Shown here piece after piece: positions 40,693 through 55,681 of a stretch of DNA of 64,000 bases. The stretch is taken from positions 31,417 to 95,416 of the IMG/VR virus record IMGVR_UViG_3300010885_033832; one strand, 5' to 3'. This DNA comes from a virus. The first letter of the stretch is position 1. Every line of letters starts with the position of its first letter. Both the position numbers and the translations under genes were made by a program. The notes beneath the pieces are model-generated. The model saw nothing but the letters and a program-made list of their open reading frames with translations, ran no database searches and was not told the DNA's origin.

Positions 40693-41415
40693 TTACTTCT
40701 TGCTGGCGGAGAATACGATGTCCGCCTTGTTGAATACGCACAGACCACAGCGTACGCAGGCACTACCCTCGTTGGAGATTAGGGGCAATGCTCCCTTGTT
40801 CTCTGGACACTTGGCACCGGGTCGGCCAGTAATCTGCTTGATTACCGATTGACCCTGCTCGAAGTTGTCCGCGAGATACGCGAGACGGATCCCATACTCC
40901 TCGCGGAGCGCGATCGCGGTGTCGAGGTTCGCGCTGTCCGCCGAGAAGTACAGCGACAGATTCGGAATGTCGCGGAGGATAATCGCGCTGTCCTCGGTTC
41001 GGGTGTAGACCCAAAACTGAACATCGGGATGATTCTCGACCACGCGCTTCCACGCGTAGGTGTAGGCGTCGTTAAAGAAATCGCCGTCCCAGTGGATACG
41101 GAACAGTTTGTCCGCGCCTCGCTTGTCGCTGTCCTTCTCAAAGTCCGTCACCATGCCGTCAAGCAGGGCGTACATCGTGTCGAGGTCAGCGTTGCGGAGC
41201 AGGTTCCAGTTGTGAACCAGCACCTCGCGTACTCCCTTGTAAATCTTTTCGAGCTTCCCGGCGTAGCAGATAATCTCGCAGACCGAGGTTGCTCCCGGGC
41301 AAGAGAATGGCTTCCCCGAGGGCAGACCGAATGTGTTGGCGATTGCTGGCGTCTTACCCGAGGGCATGACAGCGTTCGTCACCTTGCGGTCTTTAGAGCG
41401 TTTGAGCGTGTCCAT
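40693..41415 (-). CDS. GP88-like Cys-rich protein
   Basis: 240 residues. CPGATSVCEIICYA near residues 39-52 and CPENKG...CVRCGLCVF near the C-terminus give a Cys set suited to an Fe-S cluster or zinc. The middle FRIHWDGDFFNDAYTYAWKRVV and PDVQFWVYTRT follow the phage 'gene product 88' family, which has relatives with radical-SAM-like barrels. Enzymatic activity is not known. It lies next to the DprA-like gene in a separate cassette. Confidence 0.82.
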   Translation of the reverse strand: MDTLKRSKDRKVTNAVMPSGKTPAIANTFGLPSGKPFSCPGATSVCEIICYAGKLEKIYKGVREVLVHNWNLLRNADLDTMYALLDGMVTDFEKDSDKRGADKLFRIHWDGDFFNDAYTYAWKRVVENHPDVQFWVYTRTEDSAIILRDIPNLSLYFSADSANLDTAIALREEYGIRLAYLADNFEQGQSVIKQITGRPGAKCPENKGALPLISNEGSACVRCGLCVFNKADIVFSASKK

Positions 41416-41468
41416 AATGTCTCCTTTCGTTGGACAGTCTCAACGATACGCGGTGTAATAAAAAAGCG

Positions 41469-41492
41469 CAAGGAGGGGGTCTCCCCCCTCCC
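41469..41492 (-). terminator. Hairpin after the 196-aa gene
   Basis: GGAGGGGG TCT CCCCCCTCC; rc tail TTGCGCTTTTTT. Confidence 0.8.
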
Positions 41493-41503
41493 TGCGTTGT
41501 CGG

Positions 41504-42094
41504 TCAGTAGTGGAAGTCCACTGGCACGAGGAACCATTGGTCGGCACTCTCGCTGTCCTCCATGTCCTTGAGGAGGTAGCGCATTTCCGTGACACCGTTG
41601 GTGATGTCATAGAAGTAGGTGTCGGGCAACCAATACTCGGCAGCCATGCGCGAGAGATACCCGAACTGGTACATCGTTGAGAGCGGGTCGTACGGGAACT
41701 CGGTCGAATCACTCAGCGAGTACGCGAGGTACTCCTCAACCCGTTCCTCGAACGATTTCCCGTCCTGCTCGTTGCGGAGTTTGATTTCCTCGAGACGGCG
41801 ACGCATTTCGGTAGCGCGTGATTCGAGGCACTCGCGGATTGTCTTGGAGAACTTCTTGGGGTCTTCCGAGAAAGCGATCACATTCATCGTGTCGAACACA
41901 TAAGCGTCAGTGTTCTGGAAGAACCGACCACCACCGACAACGAACCAGTCGTACCAGTCCGCGTAAGGCCGCTCGTCTCCCGAGAGAGTGTTGTTGACCT
42001 CATGGGCCGCGCTCTCTTTGGCCTCGTCCATGTCAATGCCGTTCTCGCCAATGGTCTCGTTGCTCTTGACGGCAACCCAATGTAAAGTGTGCAT
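41504..42094 (-). CDS. Unknown 196-aa protein
   Basis: Start MHTLHWVAVKSNETIGENG. WYDWFVVGGGRFF recalls short phage proteins with a WYxxGGRW motif. Long charged helix (CLESRATEMRRRLEEIKLRNEQDG) follows. Function unknown. Confidence 0.8.
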   Translation of the reverse strand: MHTLHWVAVKSNETIGENGIDMDEAKESAAHEVNNTLSGDERPYADWYDWFVVGGGRFFQNTDAYVFDTMNVIAFSEDPKKFSKTIRECLESRATEMRRRLEEIKLRNEQDGKSFEERVEEYLAYSLSDSTEFPYDPLSTMYQFGYLSRMAAEYWLPDTYFYDITNGVTEMRYLLKDMEDSESADQWFLVPVDFHY

Positions 42095-42152
42095 GCTGTC
42101 TATCCTTTCCGTGGTCGGAGTTTCCGGCCACACTCTGACATTACACAAAGAA

Positions 42153-42179
42153 AGAGGAGGGCGCAAGCCCCCCTCCTCC
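42153..42179 (-). terminator. Hairpin after the 140-aa gene
   Basis: GAGGAGGGC GCAA GCCCCCCTC, TTTCTTTG after it. Confidence 0.85.
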
Positions 42180-42186
42180 TGTGTTG

Positions 42187-42609
42187 CTACGCCTCGAAGA
42201 CTACTCGACCCTCGTAGATTCCGTGCGGTGTCCACTTCCAAATCTCGCCGTCCTCGCCACGCCAGATGATGTAGCACGACACATCCACGAGGTCGCGAAT
42301 GGCGTTGATGAACTGTGACTCGTCACCAATCTTGCTGTCGTATCCGTGGACATTGAGACCGCCGTCCTCCTGAATCATGCAGTCGAACCCGAGGAGTTCG
42401 AGAACCTCCTGTGCCGAGGACACAGTCTGGTCGTAGTCGGTGGGCATCCACGAGAACCACTTCTCGTTCTCCTCACCACTTGACCATCGGCCTCCACCCT
42501 TGATTGCGTTCGGGTCGTGGTTGAGTGCCTTGAACCGCTCGAGAGCCTTGTCAAGGTTGTGTGCCGGAATCACAAAGTTCGATTCCTGAATGTTGATGTA
42601 GTAACCCAT
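42187..42609 (-). CDS. Phage conserved hypothetical protein (140 aa)
   Basis: MGYYINIQESNFVIPAHNLDK start; later GGLNVHGYDSKIGDESQFINAI and IIWRGEDGEIWKW. This order (MGYYI...GYDxKxGxE...WxGEDGxxW) marks a common phage family of unknown function. Good ribosome site. Confidence 0.82.
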   Translation of the reverse strand: MGYYINIQESNFVIPAHNLDKALERFKALNHDPNAIKGGGRWSSGEENEKWFSWMPTDYDQTVSSAQEVLELLGFDCMIQEDGGLNVHGYDSKIGDESQFINAIRDLVDVSCYIIWRGEDGEIWKWTPHGIYEGRVVFEA

Positions 42610-42662
42610 CGGTTCCTTTCCGTGAGCAGACCTTGCTCACACTTTGAGTTTAGGACGGAAGC

Positions 42663-42687
42663 GAGGGGAGTGCAATGCACCCCCCTC
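42663..42687 (-). terminator. Hairpin after the 125-aa gene
   Basis: GAGGGGAGTGC/GCACCCCCCTC. Confidence 0.8.
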
Positions 42688-42692
42688 CTCCG

Positions 42693-43070
42693 TTACTTGT
42701 GGACGCTCTCGTTCCCACAGCAGGAGCAGTAGGACTCGTGTTCGACATGGTCACAGCAGTCGTGCTTGTCCCATGTCCACTCCCCACCACCGATTGCGTA
42801 GACCCGAGTACCGTTCTTGTTCAGGTATCCCTGATACTCGATCCGTGCTTCGCTCGGGTCGCGGTCAGGCTCAACGACCCAGACTGTATCGGTCTGGGCG
42901 TTGTACCCAAACTGGTTGTAGTACTCACCAGCCATCAGCATTTGGAATACATCGTTGACCACTTGGGTCAGCGTGAACTCGGGGATGACCCATCCGTTCC
43001 ACTTCCGTGAAGCGAATGAGACACACTCCGAGGCTGGCAGGTGTTCGTTGACCACGGCGTAGTTGGTCAT
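42693..43070 (-). CDS. 125-aa protein with C-terminal Cys cluster
   Basis: TAATG overlap with the upstream 87-aa gene. The end CCDHVEHESYCSCCGNESVHK packs five Cys and three His: a probable zinc or double-metal site. The body is beta-rich (DTVWVVEPDRD). No family recognised. Confidence 0.8.
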   Translation of the reverse strand: MTNYAVVNEHLPASECVSFASRKWNGWVIPEFTLTQVVNDVFQMLMAGEYYNQFGYNAQTDTVWVVEPDRDPSEARIEYQGYLNKNGTRVYAIGGGEWTWDKHDCCDHVEHESYCSCCGNESVHK

Positions 43071-43333
43071 TAGTACTGACCATCCACTTCGCTTGCCACC
43101 GCGATGAACGCGGGGTCGCTCGCCTTGCGGTCTGCCACGTACTGCTGGAACTCGAAGCGAACATCGAGTGCCTTGTTGATTTGGATGAACAGGTCGCGGA
43201 GTGCGTCTGCTCGCCCCGTGTGGTAGGCCGAGTCCTCGAGGTCACCAGTCTGCATGCTGTCACGCTCTGCCATCTGCCACTCCTCCTCGAGGTTCATGAG
43301 AATCCCCGGAACGGTATTCATTTGTGTCGACAT
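43070..43333 (-). CDS. Unknown 87-aa helical protein
   Basis: MSTQMNTVPGILMNLEEEW start with GAAAGGAG. Mostly helical and acidic. Coupled to the 125-aa gene. Confidence 0.8.
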   Translation of the reverse strand: MSTQMNTVPGILMNLEEEWQMAERDSMQTGDLEDSAYHTGRADALRDLFIQINKALDVRFEFQQYVADRKASDPAFIAVASEVDGQY

Positions 43334-43399
43334 CTCTGTCTCCTTTCGCGCCAGACTCTCTGGCTACCTCGAGCCTACGCTCATTACACAACAAATGCA

Positions 43400-43426
43400 A
43401 ACACCCCCCGCCGAAGCGAGGGGTGT
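43400..43426 (-). terminator. Hairpin after the 97-aa gene
   Basis: ACACCCC..CGC CGAA GCGAGGGGTGT with TTTGCATTTG tail. Confidence 0.8.
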
Positions 43427-43440
43427 CTGTTGGCGAAAGC

Positions 43441-43734
43441 CTACTGCTTGGCAGTGAGGATTTCGAGGCGGAGGGAGTGCGAGACCTTCTGAACCTTCTC
43501 GAAGATTGCAGGCCACTTCGCCTTGAGGAGGTCGCTGTCAACCAGAGTGCGCGGAACGCTCTTGGTCTTGGCAACTGCCTTGCCACGGTAGGTGGCTACC
43601 TCTGCCCCACCCATTGCATCGAGGATGCGAGTGCGGAGATCGGTGTCCTCCTTGTCGAGAGCGTTCTTCTGCTCCCGGACTTCAGCAAGTCGCTGAAGGT
43701 CGGCAACGATTGTGCCGGGTACGGATGTTTCCAT
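43441..43734 (-). CDS. 97-aa coiled-coil/beta protein, paralog of the 30135 gene
   Basis: DLQRLAEVREQKNALDKED coiled coil, then GGAEVATYRGKAVAKTKSVPRTLVDS and LLKAKWPAIFEKVQKV. The same architecture as the 95-aa protein at 30135. This kind of YxGKxVA strand followed by a helix is typical of short recombination-associated phage proteins. Confidence 0.78.
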   Translation of the reverse strand: METSVPGTIVADLQRLAEVREQKNALDKEDTDLRTRILDAMGGAEVATYRGKAVAKTKSVPRTLVDSDLLKAKWPAIFEKVQKVSHSLRLEILTAKQ

Positions 43735-43793
43735 CGTGTCTATCCTTTCGTGACCCTACTTGGTTTCGGGTACAGTTCCACTGTACGCGAAAC

Positions 43794-43820
43794 GACCCCC
43801 CCTCGCAAGTAGGGGGGGTC
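43794..43820 (-). terminator. Hairpin after the 167-aa gene
   Basis: GACCCCCCCT CGCAAGT AGGGGGGGTC. Confidence 0.85.
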
Positions 43821-43828
43821 TGATTCGG

Positions 43829-44332
43829 CTAGAAGCCAGTGAGTTCGGCTTCGAGGTTCTCGATGTCGATGTTGAAGTGAGCGTCATTGATGTGCTCAAT
43901 CACATCTCCGAGGAGCGTGCGCTCGTTCTCTTGGAGTCCGTCTTTTTCCAACTGGAGGTTGACGTACCCGGCGAGGTCTTCGAGGTTCTGGTGTAGGTAC
44001 GAGATGGTCTCGAGAAACACAGTCGAGTGCTCGGGGTCAGGGAAGAACGTCTTGACGAGTTGCTCGACCTGAAGTCCGATTGCGAATCGCATGAGCGAGA
44101 TCGGGTTGTCGTACTCCGAGAAGTCGCGTTCCTCCATCTCCTCGTGCGTAACCACCGGGTATTCGAACTCGGTGTAGAGGGCGAACAGGTCATGGTTCGA
44201 CCAGTTGCGGAGTTCGTCCGCAATGAGTTGCAGCAGGAGGTTACCCTCGAAGGTCTGGCCAGCTTTTTCCTTGGCCTCCTTGCGCTTGATGACTGTGTCC
44301 ATCAGGGCGGAGGAGTGGTGCGTTCCTTGCAT
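43829..44332 (-). CDS. Unknown 167-aa acidic helical protein
   Basis: Start MQGTHHSSALMDTVIKRKEA after AAAGGA. Long acidic helices (VFLETISYLHQNLEDLAGYVNLQLEKDG). No recognised motif. Confidence 0.8.
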   Translation of the reverse strand: MQGTHHSSALMDTVIKRKEAKEKAGQTFEGNLLLQLIADELRNWSNHDLFALYTEFEYPVVTHEEMEERDFSEYDNPISLMRFAIGLQVEQLVKTFFPDPEHSTVFLETISYLHQNLEDLAGYVNLQLEKDGLQENERTLLGDVIEHINDAHFNIDIENLEAELTGF

Positions 44333-44387
44333 AATGATTCCTTTCAGGTTGTAGGTGGATGTCACCCAATATCAATTTACAGAAAAG

Positions 44388-44412
44388 ACCCCCCGAAGTC
44401 AAGCCGGGGGGC
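44388..44412 (-). terminator. Hairpin after the 110-aa gene
   Basis: GACCCCCCG/CGGGGGGCC with TTTTCTG tail on the minus strand. Confidence 0.75.
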
Positions 44413-44427
44413 CCCTCTGTGTCAAGA

Positions 44428-44760
44428 CTATCCGTAGATGATGTCTCCGTAGACTGCGACCTGCAAAATTCCGCTCGAGGTGCAGAGGTCTTGGTCTTGC
44501 CAATCCCAACCACCCGAGCAGTGGCTGTAGTTCTTGTCGAGGCAGAACTGGTATGCCTTGAGCAAGTCCTCGATACCGAGTTCCTTGCGGACTTTCAATC
44601 CCTCGTTCTCAGGATCCTCGCCCGCGATTGTGAAGCGACCGAGTTTTTCCCAGGTGGCGTCTCCGTGATACTTGATGGTGACCCAGCAGGAGTCGAATTC
44701 CCATCCGCCTCCCATCGTCTCAGACCAGAAGTCCTCGTACTCGTCTTGTGTGATTTCCAT
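44428..44760 (-). CDS. Unknown 110-aa protein
   Basis: ATG shares a base with the upstream TAA (TAATG). MEITQDEYEDFWSETMGGGWEF; contains WVTIKYHGDATWEK and a Cys-bearing FCLDKNYSHCSGGWDW. Unknown family; coupled to the 95-aa gene. Confidence 0.78.
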   Translation of the reverse strand: MEITQDEYEDFWSETMGGGWEFDSCWVTIKYHGDATWEKLGRFTIAGEDPENEGLKVRKELGIEDLLKAYQFCLDKNYSHCSGGWDWQDQDLCTSSGILQVAVYGDIIYG

Positions 44761-45640: not shown

Positions 45641-46459
45641 TCACTCAGCGGAATCAAAACTTTTCGGAATCCCGGGCGTGTCGTAACTTCCGAGATACTT
45701 CAATGTAGAAAGTGTAGGATCACCCGTTGCATTCACCAAGCCCATTCGTTCTCGCTGGAACTTCGCGAGCGCCGATCGAGTCTTGGCATCGAAGACGCCG
45801 CGGTCCGCTTGCTCTAGCCCGGCAACATCAGCACGCGAGAGCTCGACCTGGATCAGCTCGACACTGCGGGCGATCTTCGGGGATCGAGCAGCAGCCGCTG
45901 GAGTTGTACAGGTTCGGATCTCGCCGACGCGGACTAGCGGCAGCTTTGACTTAAGATCAGATCGCTGCTCACTTTCTACATTCTTTAATGTGGAAAGTGG
46001 GATCGGATCTGGCCGCACAAATGTGAGTACATCGTACTTGTGCCGGATCCGTTCATACACACCGTTGGGATCTTGCGGCGCTCGCAGGTTAGGCGTAGCG
46101 ACGTTGGCCTCGATCGCCGAGAACCGTCGGTGTTGTTTCCAGTGTGCGACTTCGGAGACAACCCCAATGTGCGGAGCTCCCATCGGATCGACCCCGAAGC
46201 TGTAGAAGACAAGGTCCCCTCGCCGAGGAGTCCTCACCGTTTGACCCCAAGCAAGGTAGTGGCCGAGAGCTGCAACCGTGTGAGTGTGGGAGACCGGGAG
46301 CTGTAAACCGTTGTCGAGGAATATTACATCAATAAACGATCCGTTCCAGGCGTGCCCATCCCAGCCGACTCGCCGACCGAAGACCGAGATATTTCCGTGG
46401 GTGCAGGTGTAGCCGAGATACTTCGAGGCAAGATCAGCGAGGTTGTCTTTAGTCTTCAC
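45641..46459 (-). CDS. Lysin-like cell-wall peptidase (CHAP/NlpC-type) with C-terminal peptidoglycan-binding domain
   Basis: 272 residues, GTG start. The N-terminal domain has GHAWNGSFIDVIF (36-47), RRGDLVFYSF (80-88) and PHIGVVSEV (H97), the order of CHAP/NlpC-P60 endopeptidases; a Pro/Ala linker leads to a PG_binding_1-like tail (VELIQVELSRAD..GVFDAKTRSALAKFQRERMG). The expected WC nucleophile reads W38-N39 here; the only nearby Cys is C19 in YTCTHG. So it is either inactive, uses another Cys, or is not a standard member. No signal peptide: release would need a holin. The GTG lies inside an ACGGACGGT repeat. Confidence 0.75.
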   Translation of the reverse strand: MKTKDNLADLASKYLGYTCTHGNISVFGRRVGWDGHAWNGSFIDVIFLDNGLQLPVSHTHTVAALGHYLAWGQTVRTPRRGDLVFYSFGVDPMGAPHIGVVSEVAHWKQHRRFSAIEANVATPNLRAPQDPNGVYERIRHKYDVLTFVRPDPIPLSTLKNVESEQRSDLKSKLPLVRVGEIRTCTTPAAAARSPKIARSVELIQVELSRADVAGLEQADRGVFDAKTRSALAKFQRERMGLVNATGDPTLSTLKYLGSYDTPGIPKSFDSAE

Positions 46460-46595
46460 CGTCCGTCATCCCTTCCTCGACACGCCGGACAATCCGATCG
46501 GTATCCATTGCCAACTGTACCAGTCGAATGTACTCTTCGCGGGTACTAGTCTTTCCTACGCTCGTCTCGATGCTCGACCTCAACTCGGTCAGCAT
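46449..46595 (-). CDS. Possible 48-aa protein overlapping its neighbours
   Basis: ATG at 46593-46595 after GAAGGA. MLTELRSSIETSVGKTSTREE, a helical peptide. It overlaps the end of the 308-aa gene by 50 bases and the lysin start by 11, and bridges two genes that would otherwise have a gap. Confidence 0.45.
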   Translation of the reverse strand: MLTELRSSIETSVGKTSTREEYIRLVQLAMDTDRIVRRVEEGMTDGED

Positions 46596-47472
46596 CGTCA
46601 GTAGTTCCTTCTTCACTATCAATCACCTCCGCCTCGAGTTCGGGGAGCGGCGACGAGGTGACGTTGATCAGCAGCGTCTTCAACCGTTCTTGTAATATGT
46701 CAGCAGCGGGCCGGACATCGATCGCGACATTCTGATCGATCTCGAATCCGCCGCGCACGCCAGCTCGATCGAGGAGCTCCGTCGCAGCTTTGAGCTTGAC
46801 GGGTTCCGACTCGGCAGACTCGAGGAGAGCTTCGAGGACCTCGACTGCTCGGGGAGCCGACTGCATCACCCGAAGGCGAGCAGCGTGGATCGCGCCCTGC
46901 GTATCGATCCTCACACTCGGGAGGTGCGTGGTGCAGAGACCGTCATCATCCCGGCGTCCCGATGTCCACTTGAGGCAGCGGATCGAGTCGGACTTGATGA
47001 AGCGACACCGTTGAGGTGGGCCGCCCAGTGAGGGCATGCCCTTGAAGTCGACATCCTCTTCTCGCCGCTTGCGAAGCCGGAGCCAGGTCTTGTTCGCCTG
47101 CAGCACCCACGGGGGTACGATGAGGTCGGCCCGTTCCTCAACGAGGAGTTCTTCCTCGGTGAGGTAGTCGGAGTTGCGATCTCGAGGATCGGCGAGGATC
47201 GGTTCGAACTTGTCGATCAGTGAGACGCGAGCTTCTGTCATAGACTCGGGAGCGATGGCCCGAAGGTACGGAGTGAAGGAGCCGCGTTCGTCGACGATGA
47301 TCTGATATTGCATCCGACTGACCCGGAGAATCTTTCGGTTCTCCATGGTGTCGTGGCAAACGCCTCGATCAACTTCGTCGATGCCGAGGATCGTCAAGTC
47401 GGGGCGAAGATCGACAGGGGTGTCGTCAGTATCGCGATAACCCGAACCGTCGGTTGGTTCTAGGTCAGTCAT
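46546..47472 (-). CDS. 308-aa protein, candidate terminase small subunit
   Basis: The C-terminal third has APRAVEVLEALLESAESEPVKLKAATELLDRAGVRGGF, a repeat-like helical pattern seen in some phage terminase small subunits and related HTH proteins. A Cys/His element (CRFIKSDSIRCLKW...CTTHL) in the middle resembles a zinc finger. The N-terminal part is acidic. GGAGGC precedes the ATG. The distance from the large subunit (23 kb) makes the call tentative; a regulator is the alternative. Confidence 0.55.
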   Translation of the reverse strand: MTDLEPTDGSGYRDTDDTPVDLRPDLTILGIDEVDRGVCHDTMENRKILRVSRMQYQIIVDERGSFTPYLRAIAPESMTEARVSLIDKFEPILADPRDRNSDYLTEEELLVEERADLIVPPWVLQANKTWLRLRKRREEDVDFKGMPSLGGPPQRCRFIKSDSIRCLKWTSGRRDDDGLCTTHLPSVRIDTQGAIHAARLRVMQSAPRAVEVLEALLESAESEPVKLKAATELLDRAGVRGGFEIDQNVAIDVRPAADILQERLKTLLINVTSSPLPELEAEVIDSEEGTTDDADRVEVEHRDERRKD

Positions 47473-47563
47473 GGGGCCTCCGAAGAAAAAATGGCGTGAG
47501 TTGCGAGATCGCAGCCTCCTGACCTAGTTTACCCCATTTTTATACACTATCTTAGAAGGTTGC

Positions 47564-47764
47564 CTATTTCTCGTTCTTATGTTCACTTAGACAGCATGGA
47601 CACTTATGCGTGTCACCGTCCGTTGAGGATACATAGTGGCCGATGCATGTCGAGTGTTGACCCGACATACACCAACCAAACTCGACAGCGTCAGTGATTT
47701 CTACCCCAGTCGGGGGAACGATATCACTCCGAGTCGTCGTCTTCCGAGTCACCATCTTCGCCAA
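47564..47764 (-). CDS. Small zinc-binding-like protein (66 aa)
   Basis: WCMSGQHSTCIGHYVSSTDGDTHKCPCC: four to five Cys and two to three His, a probable zinc finger pair. It begins 41 bases inside the end of the 157-aa gene. Confidence 0.72.
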   Translation of the reverse strand: MAKMVTRKTTTRSDIVPPTGVEITDAVEFGWCMSGQHSTCIGHYVSSTDGDTHKCPCCLSEHKNEK

Positions 47765-48197
47765 TCACCGTCCCATTCTCCAACTCGATGCCGTCCAGCA
47801 AATCGGTCGGCAACCCAACAGACTCGAGGACTTCTTTCATCTTGGTCTTGGTTTCTTCAATCTTCTGGGCGAGGTTCTTCTTGGAGCGTTCTTCCTCAGC
47901 CTTAGTCGACAAGACGTGCCACTGCGAGACAACCTCGAGGGCTTCAGCGAATGATAGCTCCTCGAAACGCTGACGGTCCGTCTCATCTACGATGCACTTC
48001 TTGAGGAGGCGAATAGCCGCAATCATGGCCGCAGGGCCGTGCACCTTTTCGCCGAACATCTTGCTGACATCATCAACGGACATCGACATAAAGTTGACTG
48101 CTTCCCCCCGGAAGGTTTCGGTGGACAATCCAACAATGTTCCACCGTCCGTTCATTTCATCTTCCCACGAGGAAAAGATGTCTCCTGCCTCACTCAT
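47724..48197 (-). CDS. Unknown 157-aa protein
   Basis: Start MSEAGDIFSSWEDEMNGRW with GGGA six bases upstream. Predicted all-alpha with an acidic tail (EDGDSEDDDSE). RFEELSFAEALEVVSQWHVLS recalls tail assembly chaperones, but no tape measure or slippery heptamer is present. Overlaps both neighbours. Confidence 0.72.
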   Translation of the reverse strand: MSEAGDIFSSWEDEMNGRWNIVGLSTETFRGEAVNFMSMSVDDVSKMFGEKVHGPAAMIAAIRLLKKCIVDETDRQRFEELSFAEALEVVSQWHVLSTKAEEERSKKNLAQKIEETKTKMKEVLESVGLPTDLLDGIELENGTVIGEDGDSEDDDSE

Positions 48198-48564
48198 TCC
48201 CATTCCCTGGTTCTTCACCTAAGTCTCCTTCTAATCCGAGTACATCCTCCACGTCTCGAACTAGATAGTACGAGATGGGGACGTAGTTGTAAAACTGCTT
48301 GTCCCAGTCTGGCTTAACGATGTAGCCGAACTTCATCGCAATCAAATCGATTTGCGGAAGGAGGTCAGCCGGGACTGCCACATCTATGGGAACAGTACCA
48401 GAGACAGACGAGACGCGCAACTTCTCGACAAGTCCACCAATGAAGTGTCCTGCAGCGAAGTCAGCGTCTGCGTACTTCCCGCCTTGCGATTCGATGCAGA
48501 TAATCATGAACTCACGATTAGCCCAGTCAGGTCTCCACGGTCCGCCCAAAGAATTATTTTCCAT
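48190..48564 (-). CDS. Unknown 124-aa protein
   Basis: MENNSLGGPWRPDWANREFMIICIESQGG; alpha/beta with SYYLVRDVEDVLGLEG tail. Overlaps the upstream gene by 11 bases. No family. Confidence 0.75.
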   Translation of the reverse strand: MENNSLGGPWRPDWANREFMIICIESQGGKYADADFAAGHFIGGLVEKLRVSSVSGTVPIDVAVPADLLPQIDLIAMKFGYIVKPDWDKQFYNYVPISYYLVRDVEDVLGLEGDLGEEPGNGNE

Positions 48565-49072
48565 CTCGGTACCTCATCTCGATCTCGCAGGTTCCGCAAA
48601 TCAATGTGAACCGTCCGGTGTAATCCTCGGAGCGAGACAGCCTGAGCAGGATTTCTCCATCAGCCCCAACCATCCGCACGTGCACATCGGTATCCCCGAG
48701 GAAGGGCCGACTGCAGGAAGCAACGTCGCAACGACTTGAAAGCCACGCATAGCTCAACCCTTTCTCCCTAAGACGATGTAGTCCCCAATCTAGCCCAGTG
48801 AGGTACCGTCCGTCTTGATATACCTTGATGCCCTTTTCCATGGTCTTGAGGCCGCCAGTCCACGCAGCACCTCGACCGCCGATGCGAACATCAAGTAGCC
48901 GAACGACAGCGCGATCTCCACCAGTGCAATAGCAACGAATTCCCGTAGAGGGTTGGCATCGAGCGTACTCAGTCCCGACCATGTGGTGTGTACCTAGTGA
49001 GTGCCCACAGATACAAATAAGCGTTCGGTCCGTCTTACTAGAACTAGACACGTGCTTTAGCGCGAGCGCCAC
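48554..49072 (-). CDS. 172-aa Cys-rich protein, paralog of the next upstream gene
   Basis: GTG start (uncertain, could be a later GTG). CICGHSLGTHH, CYCTGGDRAVVRLLDVR, then CDVASCSRPF and ICGTCEIEM. The first module aligns with CACGHSMKYHH of the 191-aa neighbour. Two zinc ribbons likely. Function unknown. Confidence 0.75.
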   Translation of the reverse strand: MALALKHVSSSSKTDRTLICICGHSLGTHHMVGTEYARCQPSTGIRCYCTGGDRAVVRLLDVRIGGRGAAWTGGLKTMEKGIKVYQDGRYLTGLDWGLHRLREKGLSYAWLSSRCDVASCSRPFLGDTDVHVRMVGADGEILLRLSRSEDYTGRFTLICGTCEIEMRYRDGK

Positions 49073-49619
49073 TCAGAAACTCAATCCCGTGTTCAAAGAC
49101 ACCTCGAGCACACGACTCACACATCACGCGTGAATACGCAGCAATGTCACCGTCGGACACTCGAATCCAGTGACGATCAAATGCCATAACGAATACAGGG
49201 GATTGACCCTTCTCGTCGACGAACCCAGTCGGTCCGGCACACGAGTCACAGGCAACAGCGCCTGTCTCGACAGTGTGGATCCACTCGACCATTTCTCCAG
49301 CACCTAGTGCCGCAGCTACTCCCTTGCTCAAAGAGTGGTTCATTCCATACCCCGGCTCTGCAGTCTTGTGCAGGAAGCGTCGAAGGTTCGATGTACGAAG
49401 TACCGCCCGTGTTTCTTTACAGCCACAGACGATCCGTCCGGGGGAGCAGGCAACGTAGCCTGAAGCAACATCTGTGTGGTGGTACTTCATAGAGTGCCCA
49501 CACGCACAAACATCCCTCGACCCTCGACCCATTTTCTCCGCGCGCTCTTTCATCTCGCGGAGATATTCTTGGGCCTCAGGTGACGTTGGCGATATCGCCG
49601 AGAATTCAATGTCAGTCAT
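49044..49619 (-). CDS. 191-aa Cys-rich protein
   Basis: Start MTDIEFSAIS is chosen because TATGAT lies exactly six bases before the ATG. CACGHSMKYHH, CGCKETRAVLRTSNLR, CDSCAGPTG and MCESCARG make two to three zinc sites. The first module is shared with the following gene, so the two arose by duplication. First gene of a minus-strand unit that runs to 45.1 kb. Confidence 0.78.
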   Translation of the reverse strand: MTDIEFSAISPTSPEAQEYLREMKERAEKMGRGSRDVCACGHSMKYHHTDVASGYVACSPGRIVCGCKETRAVLRTSNLRRFLHKTAEPGYGMNHSLSKGVAAALGAGEMVEWIHTVETGAVACDSCAGPTGFVDEKGQSPVFVMAFDRHWIRVSDGDIAAYSRVMCESCARGVFEHGIEFLSGARAKARV

Positions 49620-49625
49620 AGCCCC

Positions 49626-49631
49626 ATCATA
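49626..49631 (-). promoter_or_regulatory. TATGAT -10 box, leaderless arrangement
   Basis: TATGAT-N6-ATG for the 191-aa gene; no leader space is available. Confidence 0.6.
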
Positions 49632-50032
49632 ACACACTATGTCTACCTACCACTTATGTTTACTTATGTCTGAGGAGTCTGAGATGACGAGGAGTCAACT
49701 TATTTTCTCTCTATGTGCACGATGGCGCATACGCGTTAAGGAGAAACTAAGTTTACTTGATGTGACAATCTACTCGTCAGACATAAGTGGTAAAACTCCC
49801 GCCTAAACAAAGGGCCCACTATCTCCTACTATGTCAATCAACCAACACCATAAGCAAGGATCCACCCAACTAAAGCGCAAGGAGTCAACTAAATTTATAT
49901 ATTGAGCACATGGAAATCGACCTTGACAATCAATTTTTGGCCACCCCAGCCAAGTAAGTCTGCATAAGTCGACACGGTCCGTTCCTCAGACTCGTCAGAC
50001 ATAAGACGAAAAACAGCCTCCCTCACGAAGGA
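49632..50032. promoter_or_regulatory. AT-rich intergenic region with direct and inverted repeats
   Basis: About 400 bp with no credible gene. ACTCGTCAGACATAAG occurs at 49772 and 49990 as a 16-bp direct repeat, and ACTTATGTCTGA at 49662 is the inverted copy. AGGAGTCAACT occurs at 49690 and 49880. It may be a regulatory region, replication origin or another DNA site. Confidence 0.65.
49662..50005. repeat. Three-copy TCAGACATAAG repeat
   Basis: Copies at 49662-49673 (inverted), 49777-49788 and 49995-50005; the last two extend to 16 identical bases. Confidence 0.8.
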
Positions 50033-50644
50033 CTATTTAGTGATGAAATTTGACCTTCGGTGCCACTCATAGCCCCCAACATTCTTCGTCAGCCACGGCA
50101 GCGGATCGAAGAAAGTTCCGCCTCGAACAATTCCAAAGTGTAAATGCGGCCCCGAAGATCCTCCCGAAGAGCCACCCAATCCCACGACATCCCACGACGA
50201 AACGACGTCCCCAACCTCAACCGTCCGTTCAGATAGATGTCCGTACCAAAAGTCCAGTCCCCTACCAGGCGATCCAGCACCACCTCGAACGACGACCAAC
50301 CAGCCATATGGCCACTGCCACCCGGAGAAAATAACGTCACCGTCCGTCACAGAGTAGATGCGATCTCCAGTCTCTAGCGCCACATCGATGCCTCGATGCC
50401 CACGACCAGCGCCCCACCTATCATTCAGTTCCCACTTCCAAGGATCTACAGGGAGCACAACCTCAGGCGGCCTTTCAATGTATAAAAACCAATGTAAAGC
50501 GCCATGATCAACGATTTCATAGATAGCCAGATCAACTTTCACCGGAGGCGAAGGAGCCACGACTATAGGACTATTCTGTGCGCCGACAATAAGAACCCCC
50601 AACGCAATAGCGCAGAGGGCCACCGTCCGTCTCGACAGTTCCAT
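50033..50644 (-). CDS. Secreted M23-family peptidase
   Basis: 203 residues. Signal peptide: basic MELSRRTVAL then a hydrophobic run to about residue 22. M23 motifs: GHRGIDVAL (H83, D87), YGHLSE (H136) and GPHLHFG (H167, H169), the full zinc-ligand and catalytic set. LytM-type enzymes cut peptide bridges in peptidoglycan. Secretion by the host pathway would allow action from outside the membrane without a holin. A TAAAAT box lies five bases before the ATG. Confidence 0.9.
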   Translation of the reverse strand: MELSRRTVALCAIALGVLIVGAQNSPIVVAPSPPVKVDLAIYEIVDHGALHWFLYIERPPEVVLPVDPWKWELNDRWGAGRGHRGIDVALETGDRIYSVTDGDVIFSGWQWPYGWLVVVRGGAGSPGRGLDFWYGHLSERTVEVGDVVSSWDVVGLGGSSGGSSGPHLHFGIVRGGTFFDPLPWLTKNVGGYEWHRRSNFITK

Positions 50645-50649
50645 ACTCT

Positions 50650-50655
50650 ATTTTA
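50650..50655 (-). promoter_or_regulatory. TAAAAT box five bases before the M23 start
   Basis: Near-leaderless arrangement, in the gap after a terminator hairpin. Confidence 0.45.
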
Positions 50656-50668
50656 CCAGCAATAAGAA

Positions 50669-50702
50669 ACCCCCTCCCAGCCGAAGCTAGAAGGGGGTGG
50701 GT
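50669..50702 (-). terminator. Hairpin after the 120-aa gene
   Basis: CCCCCTCCCAG/CTAGAAGGGGG-type stem; TTTCTTATT follows on the minus strand. Confidence 0.75.
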
Positions 50703-50711
50703 GCTAAGAGC

Positions 50712-51074
50712 CTAAGAAGACAACGTAGCGCAAACGTGGCATGGTCCGCCATCTTCTGATGCAGACGGTCCGCTACCCCAACCACTGTGATATCCGGTGT
50801 CGTAGTCATAAAAAAGAGGGACAGGGAATGTGCGGTGATCTTTTAGAGCGTCTCTCGGATCCAAATGATACTCGGACAGGATAGCAACATCTTGAATCGC
50901 TGCCCACGGAATGATGCGAGGTTGCATAGTTCCACCGGATCGATCGACAACGGTCATCTCCAAGACAATTCCGACAAGATCGGAGGACTCTATGACATCC
51001 CTCAGGACTTTCCCATTGTTGAGAGTGATTTGCGCCGCTTGCTTGTGCACAATATCTTGAATGTGTTCTTTCAC
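50712..51074 (-). CDS. Unknown 120-aa protein
   Basis: GTG start after TAGGAG. MKEHIQDIVHKQAAQITLNNGKVLRDVI; a beta body with VPLFYDYDTGYHSGWGSG and a final CHVC pair. No family. Confidence 0.75.
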   Translation of the reverse strand: MKEHIQDIVHKQAAQITLNNGKVLRDVIESSDLVGIVLEMTVVDRSGGTMQPRIIPWAAIQDVAILSEYHLDPRDALKDHRTFPVPLFYDYDTGYHSGWGSGPSASEDGGPCHVCATLSS

Positions 51075-51136
51075 TGTTTCTCCTATATAAGAGGTTCCCT
51101 CCGACGAATGCCGAAGTACAGATAATCTAGCACAAG

Positions 51137-51168
51137 AAAAGCCCCGTAGGGTGACACCTAGGAGCTTC
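51137..51168 (-). terminator. Hairpin after the 32-aa membrane gene
   Basis: AAGC..CTAGG/CCTA..GCTT stem with TTTTCTTG tail. Confidence 0.7.
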
Positions 51169-51184
51169 TCTTTATTAAGTTGAG

Positions 51185-51283
51185 TTACTTACTGCCACGC
51201 GATCGCGCAGCAATAATAAACGCTATCACGAAGAATACGTTGAGCGCAAACGATGCGCCAACCAATCCACTAAACCAGTCCAC
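51185..51283 (-). CDS. 32-aa single-span membrane peptide
   Basis: GTG at 51281-51283 overlaps the upstream TAG (TAGTG) with GGAGG in place. MDWFSGLVGASFALNVFFVIAFIIAARSRGSK: one helix with a basic end. Lying in the cell-wall enzyme cluster, it could be a small holin or spanin-like helper, by position only. Confidence 0.7.
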   Translation of the reverse strand: MDWFSGLVGASFALNVFFVIAFIIAARSRGSK

Positions 51284-51663
51284 TAGTCACCTCCAGGTTT
51301 GATCGTTCCATCTTGTGCAAAATCTTCCCAGTCCTCGAACTCAAAGTCAATCAGCCAGTAGTGCCGTCCGTCATGTTCAATGTCGCCGACGATCTTCCCA
51401 ACTTCACCCCGATCACCTCGTCCAGCACCCTTGGCGAAGAGGACCTTGTCAAGAATCCCGAGATTGATAGCCATCAACACAGCCTCGGAGTCATCTAAAC
51501 CAGAAGGGACGGCCCATGTCCCCTCGGCCTGAATCCATTCGACATGTGTGTCTGTCTGGATAAAGACGAGGTCTGACATAGACCGTCCACTTGCTAGTTG
51601 GGTGTCGATCCACTCATCCATTGACGCCTTGCGCCGGAGGAGTCTATTCCACCATTTAATCAT
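51283..51663 (-). CDS. Unknown 126-aa protein
   Basis: MIKWWNRLLRRKASMDEWID start, preceded by TAGAAT at exactly six bases. Later VGDIEHDGRHYWLIDFEFEDWEDF. The DGR comes from an ACGGACGG sequence. No family. Confidence 0.75.
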   Translation of the reverse strand: MIKWWNRLLRRKASMDEWIDTQLASGRSMSDLVFIQTDTHVEWIQAEGTWAVPSGLDDSEAVLMAINLGILDKVLFAKGAGRGDRGEVGKIVGDIEHDGRHYWLIDFEFEDWEDFAQDGTIKPGGD

Positions 51664-51669
51664 TCACTC

Positions 51670-51675
51670 ATTCTA
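51670..51675 (-). promoter_or_regulatory. TAGAAT -10 box, leaderless arrangement
   Basis: TAGAAT-N6-ATG, with no ribosome site. Confidence 0.55.
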
Positions 51676-51682
51676 CATCATC

Positions 51683-52270
51683 TCAACCATCAAGGCGAAT
51701 AATCTTGTAGCGCGAGTTCCAGATTTTACGGATATCAACCCGCGTACCCGGCTTCTGGGAGTCAAGGATTAGACCGTCTCCGGCCCAAAACCCAACGTGC
51801 CCTGGCATCCATACAAGATCTCCGAGTCGAGCTTTTGATTCAGGGATAGTTTCCCCAGAATACAGTTGATCCGACGCAGAGTGTTCCAGATGAATGCCGT
51901 GCTTAGCCAGCACGAACCGAGTGAATCCCGAGCAATCAAAATACTCAGGACCGACCCCAGAGTATGAGTAGGGAGTGCCAATGTAATTCAGCGCTGTGTT
52001 GAATACATCGTCTCCCCACACCATTGTGTCAAGGTCGTAGGAGTGTTTCCCAGCCTTACGAACTATGCGATATGAATTGCGTTCAATCTCTGCCATCTCT
52101 GCCTTATCGGAGGCGACGGAGATTTGTACAGTCATAGCCGTTCGAGCGGAAGGGTTCCACCAGATACTGTCACTATTTAGTAATGACCCAGGAACTACAG
52201 CATTTGCCATATTTCCGGGAATAAAACTGACCAAGACAGCCAAGGTCAGAGTTCCAAGTTTGAGGTACAC
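51683..52270 (-). CDS. Secreted NlpC/P60 endopeptidase
   Basis: 195 residues. Signal peptide MYLKLGTLTLAVLVSFIPGN with a likely cleavage near ANA. Catalytic domain: YFDCSGFTRFVL (C113), GDLVWMPGHVGFWAGDGLIL (H158), the Cys-His pair of NlpC/P60. It cleaves peptidoglycan stem peptides. A GGAGG site precedes the start. The 9-mer ACGGACGGT is absent here but flanks it. Confidence 0.9.
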   Translation of the reverse strand: MYLKLGTLTLAVLVSFIPGNMANAVVPGSLLNSDSIWWNPSARTAMTVQISVASDKAEMAEIERNSYRIVRKAGKHSYDLDTMVWGDDVFNTALNYIGTPYSYSGVGPEYFDCSGFTRFVLAKHGIHLEHSASDQLYSGETIPESKARLGDLVWMPGHVGFWAGDGLILDSQKPGTRVDIRKIWNSRYKIIRLDG

Positions 52271-52297
52271 TTTGAACCTCCTTTATGGGTATTGAGG

Positions 52298-52345
52298 CCT
52301 AAAGCAAAAATCAGCCTTGCGACTGACTTTCTGCCTTGCTTTAGG
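52298..52345 (-). repeat. 10-bp inverted repeat CCTAAAGCAA/TTGCTTTAGG
   Basis: Lies between the 34-aa gene and the NlpC/P60 gene, with an inner GCAAGGC arm. It can end the upstream transcript or act as an operator. Confidence 0.6.
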
Positions 52346-52394
52346 ACTTTCTTACTTGCTAAGGCTTTACTAGTTTATCATCAAACAAGGGCTA

Positions 52395-52499
52395 TTACTG
52401 CCACCGTCCGTATTTATCTCGCGGCCACACTTGGAAAAGGTGCTTTCCCTGCACCCACGCAAGCGCCGAATACCACCAGTACTTGAGCGTAAACTTCAA
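52395..52499 (-). CDS. Possible 34-aa basic peptide
   Basis: TTG two bases after the upstream stop. MKFTLKYWWYSALAWVQG and a C-terminal DKYGRWQ: aromatic, basic, possibly membrane-active. Its end contains ACGGACGGT. Confidence 0.45.
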   Translation of the reverse strand: MKFTLKYWWYSALAWVQGKHLFQVWPRDKYGRWQ

Positions 52500-52500
52500 T

Positions 52501-52932
52501 TTATTCACCGTCCGTCTCCTCTTCTTCCTTCGGCAACTCAGAATAATGGATCGCAGTTACGCCACCGTCCGTTGAGAATATCTGTGAGTTCCGGAGATTC
52601 TGCCAGAGTGGATACCCCGAAATCTCGGAGCGGTCTTCCCACTCCGCAGGATCCGCCGTCAGGGGAGCAAGGTTCTCACCCTTCATCAGTCGGTGCAGGA
52701 TATCCGCCGTCAACTCCGCCGACGATCCAGAGTGTCCAAGCTCGGCCCACTTCGCCAAGACGGAGCAGTACCAATCGATAACGCGGGGATCTTCGCCGAC
52801 GAGCTCCAGCTCGTAACGAGCGTGCATCACCGTCGGGTGTTCGAAGTTTAGCGCCGAAAGACTCTTGTTCACAGGCTTGACTCGCTTGGGGGTCGGACGG
52901 TTTTTCCGCCCCTGACCGCGTGATTTCTTCAT
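52501..52932 (-). CDS. Unknown 143-aa protein
   Basis: Very basic N-terminus (MKKSRGQGRKNRPTPKRVK) followed by a helical body (VIDWYCSVLAKWAEL, ELTADILHRLMKGENL). AGGAG precedes the ATG. Contains two ACGGACGGT sites near its 3' end. No family. Confidence 0.8.
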   Translation of the reverse strand: MKKSRGQGRKNRPTPKRVKPVNKSLSALNFEHPTVMHARYELELVGEDPRVIDWYCSVLAKWAELGHSGSSAELTADILHRLMKGENLAPLTADPAEWEDRSEISGYPLWQNLRNSQIFSTDGGVTAIHYSELPKEEEETDGE

Positions 52933-52990
52933 GACTACTCCTAGATTCTCAGGACTACTTTATCCTAAAGACAGTCTACCGCCATCGATG

Positions 52991-52996
52991 TAAAAT
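52991..52996 (+). promoter_or_regulatory. TAAAAT -10 box, leaderless plus-strand gene
   Basis: TAAAAT-N6-ATG at 53003, with AAGACA 17 bases upstream as a weak -35. Confidence 0.65.
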
Positions 52997-53002
52997 AGAT
53001 GT

Positions 53003-54142
53003 ATGGATTACGACTACAATCTAGTTCCCGAAGAGCAGGAATTGGCCGACGCTCTGCGTACGATTGCCAACCGCTACGGTAAGTTCAACGACGACAACAC
53101 TGGCGTCTGGGCTGGATACACTCCCGCCTCGGAGAACGAAGACAACGCCAAGATCGGCGTCAAGTGTGGGAACTGCGTATTCTTCAACTCCCCTAACGGT
53201 TGCGAGATCATCGCCTCGGATGTAGAAGATGGCGGCCTATGCCGTTTTGCTGTCCTCCCTGATGGTGCCGTTACTGCAGCAGCTGAAGACGGAGAAACCT
53301 GTCCTCCCGCCACGAAGAGCATCCCACTCAATATCAAGAATCGCCAGAACGCAATTGACAATGTAGGTTACGGTCCGCTCAACCCCGCAGAGCCAAACGA
53401 TAAGTTCTGGCAGGACAAAGCCATGCGCTGGAACACCGACATCGAAGAAGCAAAGTCGGCCATCTGCGGAAACTGTGTCTTCTTTGATCGACGTCCACAA
53501 ACTCTTCAGTGTATTGAAGAAGGTCTTGCTCAGGGAGGTTCCGGCGATTCTGGTGCCTGGGATTCTATCGACCAGGCGGAACTTGGTTATTGCACCGCTC
53601 TCGACTTCAAATGCGCCGCCTCTCGCACCTGTAACGCATGGGCAGCTGGCGGTCCAATTACTGCCACCGCCGGATCGAAGAAGGCTCCCAAGAAAGATCA
53701 AATCAAGGGTTCAGATAAGAACAAGAAGGGCTCGGCCTCCGACGGTAAGGGCGTTACCTTCACCGCAGCCATCACCACTTCTCTTGAGAAGAAGGTCAAG
53801 GATCACAACGAGAAAGCGCCGAACGGTCGGAAGGTTACGCTCGCAAAGTTGAAGGCAGTCTACCGCCGTGGTGCCGGAGCATTCTCGACTAGCCACCGCC
53901 CCGACCAGAATCGTAACAGCTGGGCTATGGGCCGCGTCAACGCTTTCCTCTTCCTCGTCCGTTCAGGTAAGCCAAAGAACGCGAAGTACGTAACCGACAA
54001 CGACTTGCTTCCTAAGATGCACCCTCGTCACTCGACAGCCAGCACCATGACGCCACTTCTCGCCTCGATGCTTCACACCCTAAACTTTGAAGTCCCCGAC
54101 GCAGAATACGTCGAGGACCCCACAGAACCTTGGTTGTTCTAA
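53003..54142 (+). CDS. Virion-associated-type protein with duplicated Cys modules
   Basis: 379 residues. Two Cys modules: CGNCVFFNSPNGC...GLC (C55, C58, C67, C80) and CGNCVFFDRR...C...C...C. They resemble high-potential iron-sulfur or zinc modules in phage structural proteins. A Lys-rich linker precedes a C-terminal domain with VYRRGAGAFSTSHRPDQNRNSWAMGRVNAFLFL, found in phage head or prohead-protease-associated proteins. The gene is alone on the plus strand and converges on the minus-strand 63-aa gene. A metal cofactor is predicted. Confidence 0.75.
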   Translation: MDYDYNLVPEEQELADALRTIANRYGKFNDDNTGVWAGYTPASENEDNAKIGVKCGNCVFFNSPNGCEIIASDVEDGGLCRFAVLPDGAVTAAAEDGETCPPATKSIPLNIKNRQNAIDNVGYGPLNPAEPNDKFWQDKAMRWNTDIEEAKSAICGNCVFFDRRPQTLQCIEEGLAQGGSGDSGAWDSIDQAELGYCTALDFKCAASRTCNAWAAGGPITATAGSKKAPKKDQIKGSDKNKKGSASDGKGVTFTAAITTSLEKKVKDHNEKAPNGRKVTLAKLKAVYRRGAGAFSTSHRPDQNRNSWAMGRVNAFLFLVRSGKPKNAKYVTDNDLLPKMHPRHSTASTMTPLLASMLHTLNFEVPDAEYVEDPTEPWLF

Positions 54143-54330
54143 GAAACTAAGATCCAGATCAAGAGACCCACAATAATTAGTTGGTTCCCCAGCAAGACTA
54201 GTGATGTCCACTTCCAGACATTGCGCCACGACTCGGTGACAGATTTCTCTCGCGCTAGCGCACGAGCGGCCCGCTCAGCGAGCGTTGTCTCCCCGGTGCT
54301 ACTTCCGGTGCTTCCAATGTTGACGGCCAT
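54139..54330 (-). CDS. 63-aa C-terminally anchored membrane protein
   Basis: Polar N-terminal half, single hydrophobic segment WKWTSLVLLGNQLIIVGLLIWIL at the end. It starts at the end of the M23 gene. Possibly holin-like; unproven. Confidence 0.75.
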   Translation of the reverse strand: MAVNIGSTGSSTGETTLAERAARALAREKSVTESWRNVWKWTSLVLLGNQLIIVGLLIWILVS

Positions 54331-55412
54331 TATCGACCTCCCGCGAACTGCTTGAGTATGCGGAGTGGGTCAATAAACCGTCCGTCCCACTTGAGTCCAA
54401 AGTGCAGGTGCGCCCCAGTTGATACCCCGGAGTCTCCAACCTTTCCAATGGTCTGTCCCACCACAACTTCATCTCCAACAGAAACTGTTGCAGATCCTGG
54501 AATCATGTGTCCGTAGATTGTCTCGATGTGCTTACCGTCAGAAATAATGACAGTGTACCCAAGCTCACCATCGTAACCAACTAAAGTTACAGTGCCAGCA
54601 ATGGCTGCACTAACCTTGGTTCCGTATCCAGGAGCGAAGTCAATTCCTTGATGGTTGCTAGAGCACGCAGCACAGGGTGCAGTCCTATACCCAAAGTAGG
54701 ATGAAATATCTGCATTGCCAACTGGGTAGATCATATCTGGGAAGTAGAAGCCAGACCCAGGTTCTAGGTCGTTGTAGGCTTGGACGTTACTGGCAGTAAT
54801 CGATTGAGTCTCCTGCTTACCAGAACCCAAAAACATTACCTCAGGACCACAAAAAGCACTGCCGGCGTGTGCTGGAGAGCTAGCCAGGAGAACAGTTGAC
54901 GCCGCGGCCAGCACTGCATACTTCTTTGAACGATTAGCCGCTCTCTTACTCCAACTCTGAAGTAGCCCCAGACTCCTAGATAAACTAGTTGGACCGGGAA
55001 CCTGCTCCTCAGATAAAACAATCTCTGTTACTGGAGATGGATCTGTCTCGACTACATCCACAACTTCTTTAGGCTTCCTACGGAAAACCCCATAGATATC
55101 GTCCTTGAAGTCTTCAACAAGCTTTGCCACAATGTGATCATCAGGAAAGTTGACAAAAGGCTTATCAATGATGTCAAGAACTCGATTGCGCTCAAACTTA
55201 GCCACTTCGTGGTGGTTGCCAATTCCTTCTACATGCTCAAGACATTCTGCTTGATACTGCATAAGGCCGCGCTCGTTACCCACGACGCGGATGTAGTTGT
55301 CTCTACTCCGCTTGAGAACGTACGCAACTCGGTTCCTTTGCGAGATACCTGAGTTCAGCACCCACCTACTGCGAAGGCTTTCAAGTTGTTTTTTCTGTAA
55401 GTTAGTAGTCAC
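54330..55412 (-). CDS. Membrane-anchored M23 peptidase with long N-terminal domain
   Basis: 360 residues; GTG start overlapping the upstream TGA. Residues 1-165 are soluble and contain FERNRVLDIID, a motif also found in the neighbouring small genes. Residues about 165-185 (YAVLAAASTVLLASSPAHA) look like a signal peptide or anchor in the middle of the protein. The M23 domain has NHQGIDF (H254, D258), YGHMIPG (H302) and GAHLHFG (H335, H337). If cleaved, the enzyme would be released outside while the N-terminal part stays inside. Confidence 0.88.
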   Translation of the reverse strand: MTTNLQKKQLESLRSRWVLNSGISQRNRVAYVLKRSRDNYIRVVGNERGLMQYQAECLEHVEGIGNHHEVAKFERNRVLDIIDKPFVNFPDDHIVAKLVEDFKDDIYGVFRRKPKEVVDVVETDPSPVTEIVLSEEQVPGPTSLSRSLGLLQSWSKRAANRSKKYAVLAAASTVLLASSPAHAGSAFCGPEVMFLGSGKQETQSITASNVQAYNDLEPGSGFYFPDMIYPVGNADISSYFGYRTAPCAACSSNHQGIDFAPGYGTKVSAAIAGTVTLVGYDGELGYTVIISDGKHIETIYGHMIPGSATVSVGDEVVVGQTIGKVGDSGVSTGAHLHFGLKWDGRFIDPLRILKQFAGGR

Positions 55413-55681
55413 TCGTCCCACTCCTGTTTCATTTCGGTCACTTCCTCCGACCATGTCGGAGACAGACTATCTTGACCCTCTGTAATGCGCTCGATGTTCC
55501 GGCACGTCAAACAGTATGTCGGGTGCACCCACTTGTTGTCAAGTGAGTTCCAGACTTCTTGGTGCTCCATCAGATCAATAATCCGTCGACGTTCGGCGCT
55601 ACGCCCCAATTCTGAGCCAGCGCCGTGCGCCTTGAGCTCGATGTTGAAGACTTCTTCTTCTTGGAATATGCGCCTAATCAT
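55409..55681 (-). CDS. Small ERxRII-family protein (90 aa)
   Basis: Start MIRRIFQEEEVFNIELKAHG with GGGGAG. Motif SAERRRIIDLMEHQ, followed by CLTCRNIERI. Shares layout with the next three upstream genes. GTG/TGA overlap with the M23 gene. Confidence 0.78.
   Translation of the reverse strand: MIRRIFQEEEVFNIELKAHGAGSELGRSAERRRIIDLMEHQEVWNSLDNKWVHPTYCLTCRNIERITEGQDSLSPTWSEEVTEMKQEWDE

Follow-up and report, generated by a model that had tools for sequence, protein, structure and literature searches.

Genes and words at the locus

We analysed a 64,000-nucleotide stretch of viral DNA (positions 31,417 to 95,416 of IMG/VR record IMGVR_UViG_3300010885_033832), which is called the window throughout. 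Between window positions 46458 and 54385, the minus strand carries 11 exact copies of the nine-base word ACGGACGGT. The words surround gp1 (46546-47472), a gene for a protein resembling the small subunit of terminase, and the endolysin gene follows. The features are given below in window positions (ORF, open reading frame; L011, a close relative described in the next section).

46546-47472, minus strand: gp1, terminase-small-subunit-like, 308 amino acids; proposed reader of the word
45641-46459, minus strand: endolysin gene, following gp1; marks the conserved neighbourhood
54377-54385, minus strand: ACGGACGGT copy 1, DGR frame, end of the M23 gene 54330-55454; L011 has ACGGACGAT, a synonymous change
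52564-52572, minus strand: ACGGACGGT copy 2, TDG frame, ORF 52501-52932; intact in L011
52507-52515, minus strand: ACGGACGGT copy 3, TDG frame, end of ORF 52501-52932; indel relative to L011
52403-52411, minus strand: ACGGACGGT copy 4, YGR frame, short ORF 52395-52508; intact in L011
50622-50630, minus strand: ACGGACGGT copy 5, RRTV frame, M23 gene 50033-50644, which is missing from L011
50339-50347, minus strand: ACGGACGGT copy 6, TDG frame, M23 gene 50033-50644
50220-50228, minus strand: ACGGACGGT copy 7, ERTV frame, M23 gene 50033-50644
48805-48813, minus strand: ACGGACGGT copy 8, DGR frame, ORF 48554-49072; intact in L011
48143-48151, minus strand: ACGGACGGT copy 9, NGR frame, ORF 47724-48218; intact in L011, with the preceding base and residue changed
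47615-47623, minus strand: ACGGACGGT copy 10, TDG frame, short ORF 47564-47764; intact in L011
46458-46466, minus strand: ACGGACGGT copy 11, TDG frame, short ORF 46449-46622; intact in L011; shares bases with the GTG start of the lysin
53370-53377, minus strand: variant CGGACCGT, antisense in the plus-strand gene 53003-54142
50765-50772, minus strand: variant CGGACCGT
49974-49981, minus strand: variant CGGACCGT
48537-48544, minus strand: variant CGGACCGT
47973-47980, minus strand: variant CGGACCGT
48610-48617, minus strand: variant CGGACGGT, without the leading A

The original prediction, made from the sequence of the window, had described about twelve copies in one orientation over some 8 kb. 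Orientation and span stood, and the exact count was corrected to 11. As had been claimed, the remainder of the 64 kb holds no exact copy, and the rest of the 95.4 kb contig contains a single further one, on the opposite strand at contig position 25134. The low number expected by chance was likewise borne out, with 0.06 copies in this 10 kb under a trinucleotide model and a mean of 0.78 (maximum 3) in dinucleotide shuffles. Of the 11 copies, 10 have a purine immediately before the nine-base core and 8 have a G immediately after it. All three phases are occupied (five TDG, four xGR and two RTV), as had been stated, whereas the accompanying claim of copies between genes is questionable. Open frames contain all 11 copies, although three of these frames are short (57, 66 and 37 amino acids) and doubtful themselves. 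The overlap of one copy (46458-46466) with the GTG start of the lysin (ORF 45641-46459) was recovered as described.

The proteins encoded in the window permit ACGGACGGT at 12 places, and the word is present at 11 of them, spelling 5 of 6 TDG, 4 of 4 [DNYH]GR[FLSYCW] and 2 of 2 RTV peptides. Codon-preserving shuffles, the check named in the original prediction, gave within genes a mean of 1.17 copies (maximum 6 in 3000 shuffles), and pooled shuffles a mean of 0.42 (maximum 4 in 1000), compared with 11 observed, in agreement with the proposal that the protein sequence does not explain the word and that the nucleic acid itself is selected. The one-base variant CGGACCGT adds five sites on the same strand, and one of these (53370-53377) is antisense to the gene that contains it. 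The strand ratio of CGGAC[CG]GT is 17:1 between -8 and +1.2 kb relative to gp1; in the other 54.8 kb it is 1:1. There is good support for the array itself and for its being a feature of the DNA. An Rfam search returned no matches.

Conservation in a close relative

Protein searches for closer relatives of the window returned one contig, L011, which is 86% identical to it. Six of the seven gaplessly aligned copies of ACGGACGGT are intact in L011, compared with approximately 44% of all 9-mers in the alignment. The seventh shows a synonymous change, one further copy falls in an indel, and three are located in a gene absent from L011; site 50622 was left out of the count, as the aligner had paired unrelated sequence at this gene. 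Taken on its own, this conservation may be regarded as modest evidence (binomial P about 0.03, calculated by hand).

The phage and gp1

The DNA of the window is part of the genome of a large actinophage, which is grouped by its portal protein and gp1 with Actinomycetia phage DSL-LC01 and the Microbacterium phages Big4, Zooman, A3Wally, Pumpernickel and Cece, the latter five having genomes of 186-195 kb, and in the window as well as in all six of these phages the endolysin gene is located closely after gp1. A related gp1 is carried by a contig of an Aquiluna metagenome-assembled genome, which is consistent with Microbacteriaceae as hosts.

In Cece, gp1 is annotated as terminase small subunit. 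A PDB search with a profile built from 52 gp1 sequences found two distinct sequences and no others; these are the small terminases 7joq (E 6.5e-4) and 6w7t (E 0.04). We take them to be the NV1 and PaP3 proteins described in PMC7672466, where 6w7t is named; the assignment of 7joq is presumed. The terminase-small PHROG family was matched by 22 of the 52 members. By this homology, gp1 qualifies as a putative remote homologue of small terminases. The structure model of gp1 (pLDDT 74.9, pTM 0.49) is too uncertain for a fold; it gave weak viral matches, some of them named terminase small subunit. In Arthrobacter phage Atuin, the first gene matches the gp1 profile (E 9.4e-12) and is the counterpart of gp1; gene 4 had been considered for this role and was rejected.

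Arrays in relatives differ in spelling and share their orientation

The search for a word near gp1 was made separately for every relative. Variants of CGGCNNGC, the prevailing spelling among metagenomic relatives, emerged in many of them. They occur in several reading frames and nearly all on the gp1 strand, with strand ratios of 26:2 in L047, 23:2 in L021 and L018, and 21:3 in L064. Across 51 loci, the density of CGGCNNGC on the gp1 strand is approximately 0.1 per kb at distances greater than 1 kb before gp1 (beyond -1 kb) and increases a little over the final 800 bp. It amounts to 3-5 per kb over most of the region between the start of gp1 and +1.8 kb, apart from a dip within the gene, and is back to background by +5 kb. 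The opposite strand shows mostly 0.2-0.5 per kb and up to 1.4 within gp1, and control patterns of similar composition displayed no comparable strand-specific step. In the relatives, the word is nearly as dense in intergenic as in coding DNA (2.08 vs 2.46 per kb).

Further lineages spell the word TTCCAACG or GCAGACGG, and relatives of the same word class tend to group together in the gp1 tree, which requires 14 changes of class vs 26.5 after shuffling. The lineage of the window groups with L036, whose word ACGGCNNG is found 20:0 between -100 and +2379; the simplest reading would be that CGGC..GC drifted to CGGACSGT in the lineage of the window. L036 also has a second block of ACGGCNNG at +6505 to +7691 from gp1, after a gap of 4 kb.

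Several candidate words were discarded. ACGGACGGT itself is not a conserved spelling in distant relatives, with 13 sense copies outside L011 vs about 8 expected. A CACGC cluster in DSL-LC01 proved to be a tandem repeat tract and not an array; this phage has a degenerate CACGCA tandem repeat within an annotated coding sequence between the terminase large subunit and portal genes (L014, 4849-5218). GTAAGCTG in Big4 and Cece represents TTGACA-spaced promoter-like sites, and TATAAT-type words in relatives were set aside as promoter-like, too.

Arrays at the genome ends of isolated phages

The deposited linear genomes of the five Microbacterium phages start 61-62 bp before gp1, and their array word is AACCG. 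Comparison of both genome ends in Big4, Pumpernickel and Cece revealed direct terminal repeats of 17,669, 19,963 and 18,079 bp, respectively. In the first 3 kb of Big4, AACCG is present 42 times on the gp1 strand and 3 times on the other; the next 9 kb hold none on the gp1 strand, and the density also climbs across approximately 4 kb before the right-hand repeat. No other 5-mer in any 3 kb segment of the 174.7 kb unit genome of Big4 scores as high as AACCG in these first 3 kb, and codon-preserving shuffles of genes 1-7 gave 14.9 copies (maximum 24) vs 40 observed. For A3Wally and Zooman a similar array was predicted beforehand, and the first 3 kb of these genomes indeed showed strand ratios of 29:2 and 37:2, respectively; the next 7 kb contained one and two copies of AACCG. 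These two phages replicate the array of Big4; being its relatives, they are not fully independent of it. The array of Cece is weaker, with 27 vs 9 copies by strand in 8 kb. Poly-G tracts were seen in Microbacterium phages near the inner end of the plus-strand genes of the left terminal region (about 17100-17200 in L098 and about 14500-17500 in L114 and L115).

In Atuin, TGC[CG]G (CSGCA on the other strand) occurs 96 vs 18 times by strand in the first 6.5 kb, and its orientation remains constant through genes 1-2 (plus), 3-4 (minus) and 5-10 (plus). This independence from the coding strand points to DNA, and not mRNA, as the level at which the word acts. Six phages, namely Big4, Pumpernickel, Cece, A3Wally, Zooman and Atuin, thus carry an array at the deposited genome end, by a small-terminase-like gene. 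Metagenomic contigs end less than 1 kb from gp1 in 12 of 65 cases vs 2.8 expected, a clustering as terminal repeats would cause. The first 40 kb of T5, SPO1, Streptomyces phage Jay2Jay and Gordonia phage GMA2 contained nothing comparable beyond homopolymers, codon repeats and annotated repeats.

Other features of the window

Four genes of the cell-wall-lysis type are located at 45641-55454, encoding the endolysin, two M23 peptidases and one NlpC/P60 protein. The gap between ORFs at 49640-50020 contains TTATGTCTGACGAGT-like repeats in both orientations. In the structural genes at 25700-32700, the G-rich word GGGGGTTGTT is repeated (six copies, several running into TGTTTGCGTT) together with GGCGCTCGC words, mostly in one orientation. 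The ribonucleotide reductase large subunit encoded at 59976-63338 probably contains an intein; the Intein_splicing match (E 5.7e-8) falls short of the curated cutoff. The first 13 kb seemed poor in ORFs, and an alternative genetic code was considered; this is unnecessary, as a single open frame of 4438 codons covers positions 1-13285 on the minus strand (contig 31385-44701).

Interpretation

We favour, with some reservation, the reading that many actinobacterial phages, belonging to one large family, have their packaging terminus marked by a one-orientation array, that ACGGACGGT is the lineage form of this array, and that its copies are predicted sites for gp1. The words are probably read by the phage's own packaging-recognition protein, and we infer that gp1 binds them and takes part in starting or directing packaging. 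A packaging signal had been listed among several functions in the original prediction and fits best of those candidates, which also included a Chi-like site, silencer binding, uptake and an RNA element. According to the mechanism proposed here, gp1, encoded inside or beside the array, would bind the words, and many weak sites of the same orientation would draw the terminase to the concatemer, avidity arising from their number. The cut would be placed near gp1, the single orientation would give the terminase and packaging a direction, and the empty zone beyond the array would keep the signal unique. Word and reader would change together, resulting in lineage-specific spelling. A bolder version, which we put forward tentatively and hold to be somewhat less probable than its negation, is that giant actinophages carry a directional address on the kilobase scale, spelled in short words through the genes near the packaging terminus, in which spelling and reader co-evolve, codon and even amino acid choice are bent to the word, and words are purged just beyond the array; this would be a packaging-specificity system of a new kind and not an enlarged cos or pac site.

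Several observations weigh against the packaging reading. The gp1 of the window by itself matches the terminase-small family at E 0.13 only, and a PDB fold search with the gp1 model gave no significant match. DSL-LC01 and roughly a third of the relatives lack a clear array. Most words of the window precede gp1, reaching upstream to -6.9 kb; the usual position in relatives is downstream. This layout, the lineages with no clear array and the remoteness of the gp1 match are the weakest points of the reading. The clustering of word classes on the gp1 tree would also be expected from common descent without co-evolution. Finally, a test blind to word identity was significant but only moderately strong: in 28 of 41 loci the array region scored above the average of the controls belonging to it (pooled p = 5.5e-5); the controls were raised because they contain protein repeats. 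More than half of the array regions in this test independently returned a CGGC-type word, and the controls shared none.

Among other explanations, we consider it unlikely that the words bind a phage regulator which controls transcription around gp1 and the lysin gene, for instance a silencer or a repressor of the stoperator type. Like the words, stoperators are short, asymmetric and present in large numbers, and their orientation follows transcription (PMC9283540); in most relatives the words are indeed on the sense strand of the local genes, but their orientation is independent of transcription in Atuin, and they are dense within coding sequence and restricted to the genome end instead of being distributed across promoters and intergenic gaps of the whole genome. 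The constant orientation in Atuin bears also on the suggestion that the words are RNA elements in the leftmost mRNAs, for example binding sites of proteins or small RNAs. This would suit the position of the word in the sense strand of its carrier genes in the window and most relatives; the mRNAs of the plus-strand genes 1, 2 and 5-10 and of the minus-strand genes 3-4 of Atuin would, however, carry complementary sequences, and the variant at 53370-53377 of the window is antisense to its gene, so that we regard a role in RNA as very improbable. Chi-type sites are short, asymmetric and active in one orientation. Chi-like sites that instruct a helicase-nuclease of host or phage near a DNA end, protecting the end or promoting recombination of the terminal repeats, would agree with the proximity of the arrays to DNA ends and with the RecA-like, Cas4-type exonuclease and helicase proteins encoded by Big4. 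Phages of the same host would nevertheless be expected to share the Chi of that host, yet the spelling tracks the phage lineage; by analogy with RecBCD of E. coli, only one choice of strand would be recognised at the left end, and neither the abrupt end of the array nor the empty zone beyond it would be expected. We assign a Chi-like function a small probability.

Programmed single-strand nicks in virion DNA are known from T5, which likewise has a long terminal repeat and annotated nick sites. The major nicks annotated in T5 are few and spread over the genome (three in the first 40 kb), whereas the arrays are dense and confined to the terminus, and we give little credence to the words being nick sites. 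An origin of the words as a by-product of codon usage, composition or protein repeats is already disfavoured and hardly credible. In its favour, the word can encode conserved dipeptides such as DG and GR, and strand-biased words do arise from protein repeats elsewhere; against this stand the codon-preserving shuffles, the use of all three frames, the equal density in intergenic DNA, the sharp boundaries and the two confirmed predictions.

Significance and comparison with known systems

The means by which small terminases single out the genome of their own phage are still debated: according to one review, knowledge in the field has many gaps, and binding in vitro is weak and sequence-independent for pac phages (PMC9611059). 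If the packaging reading is true, many weak directional sites would explain the weak binding in vitro, and the natural pairs of spelling and reader make recognition testable. Arrays could locate genome ends, and perhaps indicate packaging compatibility, from the sequence alone, metagenomic contigs included, and they also provide a clear example of an extended non-coding code overlaid on genes. The literature searched, which left most subscription journals out of reach, held no description of such arrays, and by comparison with the systems below they may represent a new form of packaging recognition site.

Cluster A mycobacteriophages carry stoperators, which are similarly many, short, asymmetric and fixed in orientation (PMC9283540). 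They are found genome-wide in promoters and short intergenic spaces and are oriented with transcription, in contrast to the arrays, which are confined to the terminus, dense in coding DNA and, in Atuin, independent of gene direction. T5 has a long direct terminal repeat as well, with annotated repeats and nicks near its boundary, but no dense array of one orientation in the first 40 kb.

The closest likenesses concern packaging sites. In lambda cosB, recognition sites are located by the cut and the small-terminase gene, and their spelling co-varies with the small subunit between phages; cosB, however, spans approximately 120 bp with three sites, R1-R3, of which R2 is inverted relative to R3 and R1 (PMC4669245), whereas the arrays comprise dozens of sites over 2-8 kb, in a single orientation and inside genes. 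The pac site of P22 is an asymmetric sequence inside the small-terminase gene, and in SPP1 several binding sites flank the initial cut. Both differ from the arrays in having one or few local sites and headful ends, while the relatives with known ends have fixed long terminal repeats. In its layout, with the cut, the small-terminase gene and sites in and after this gene, the array resembles lambda cosB and P22 pac enlarged to the scale of kilobases.

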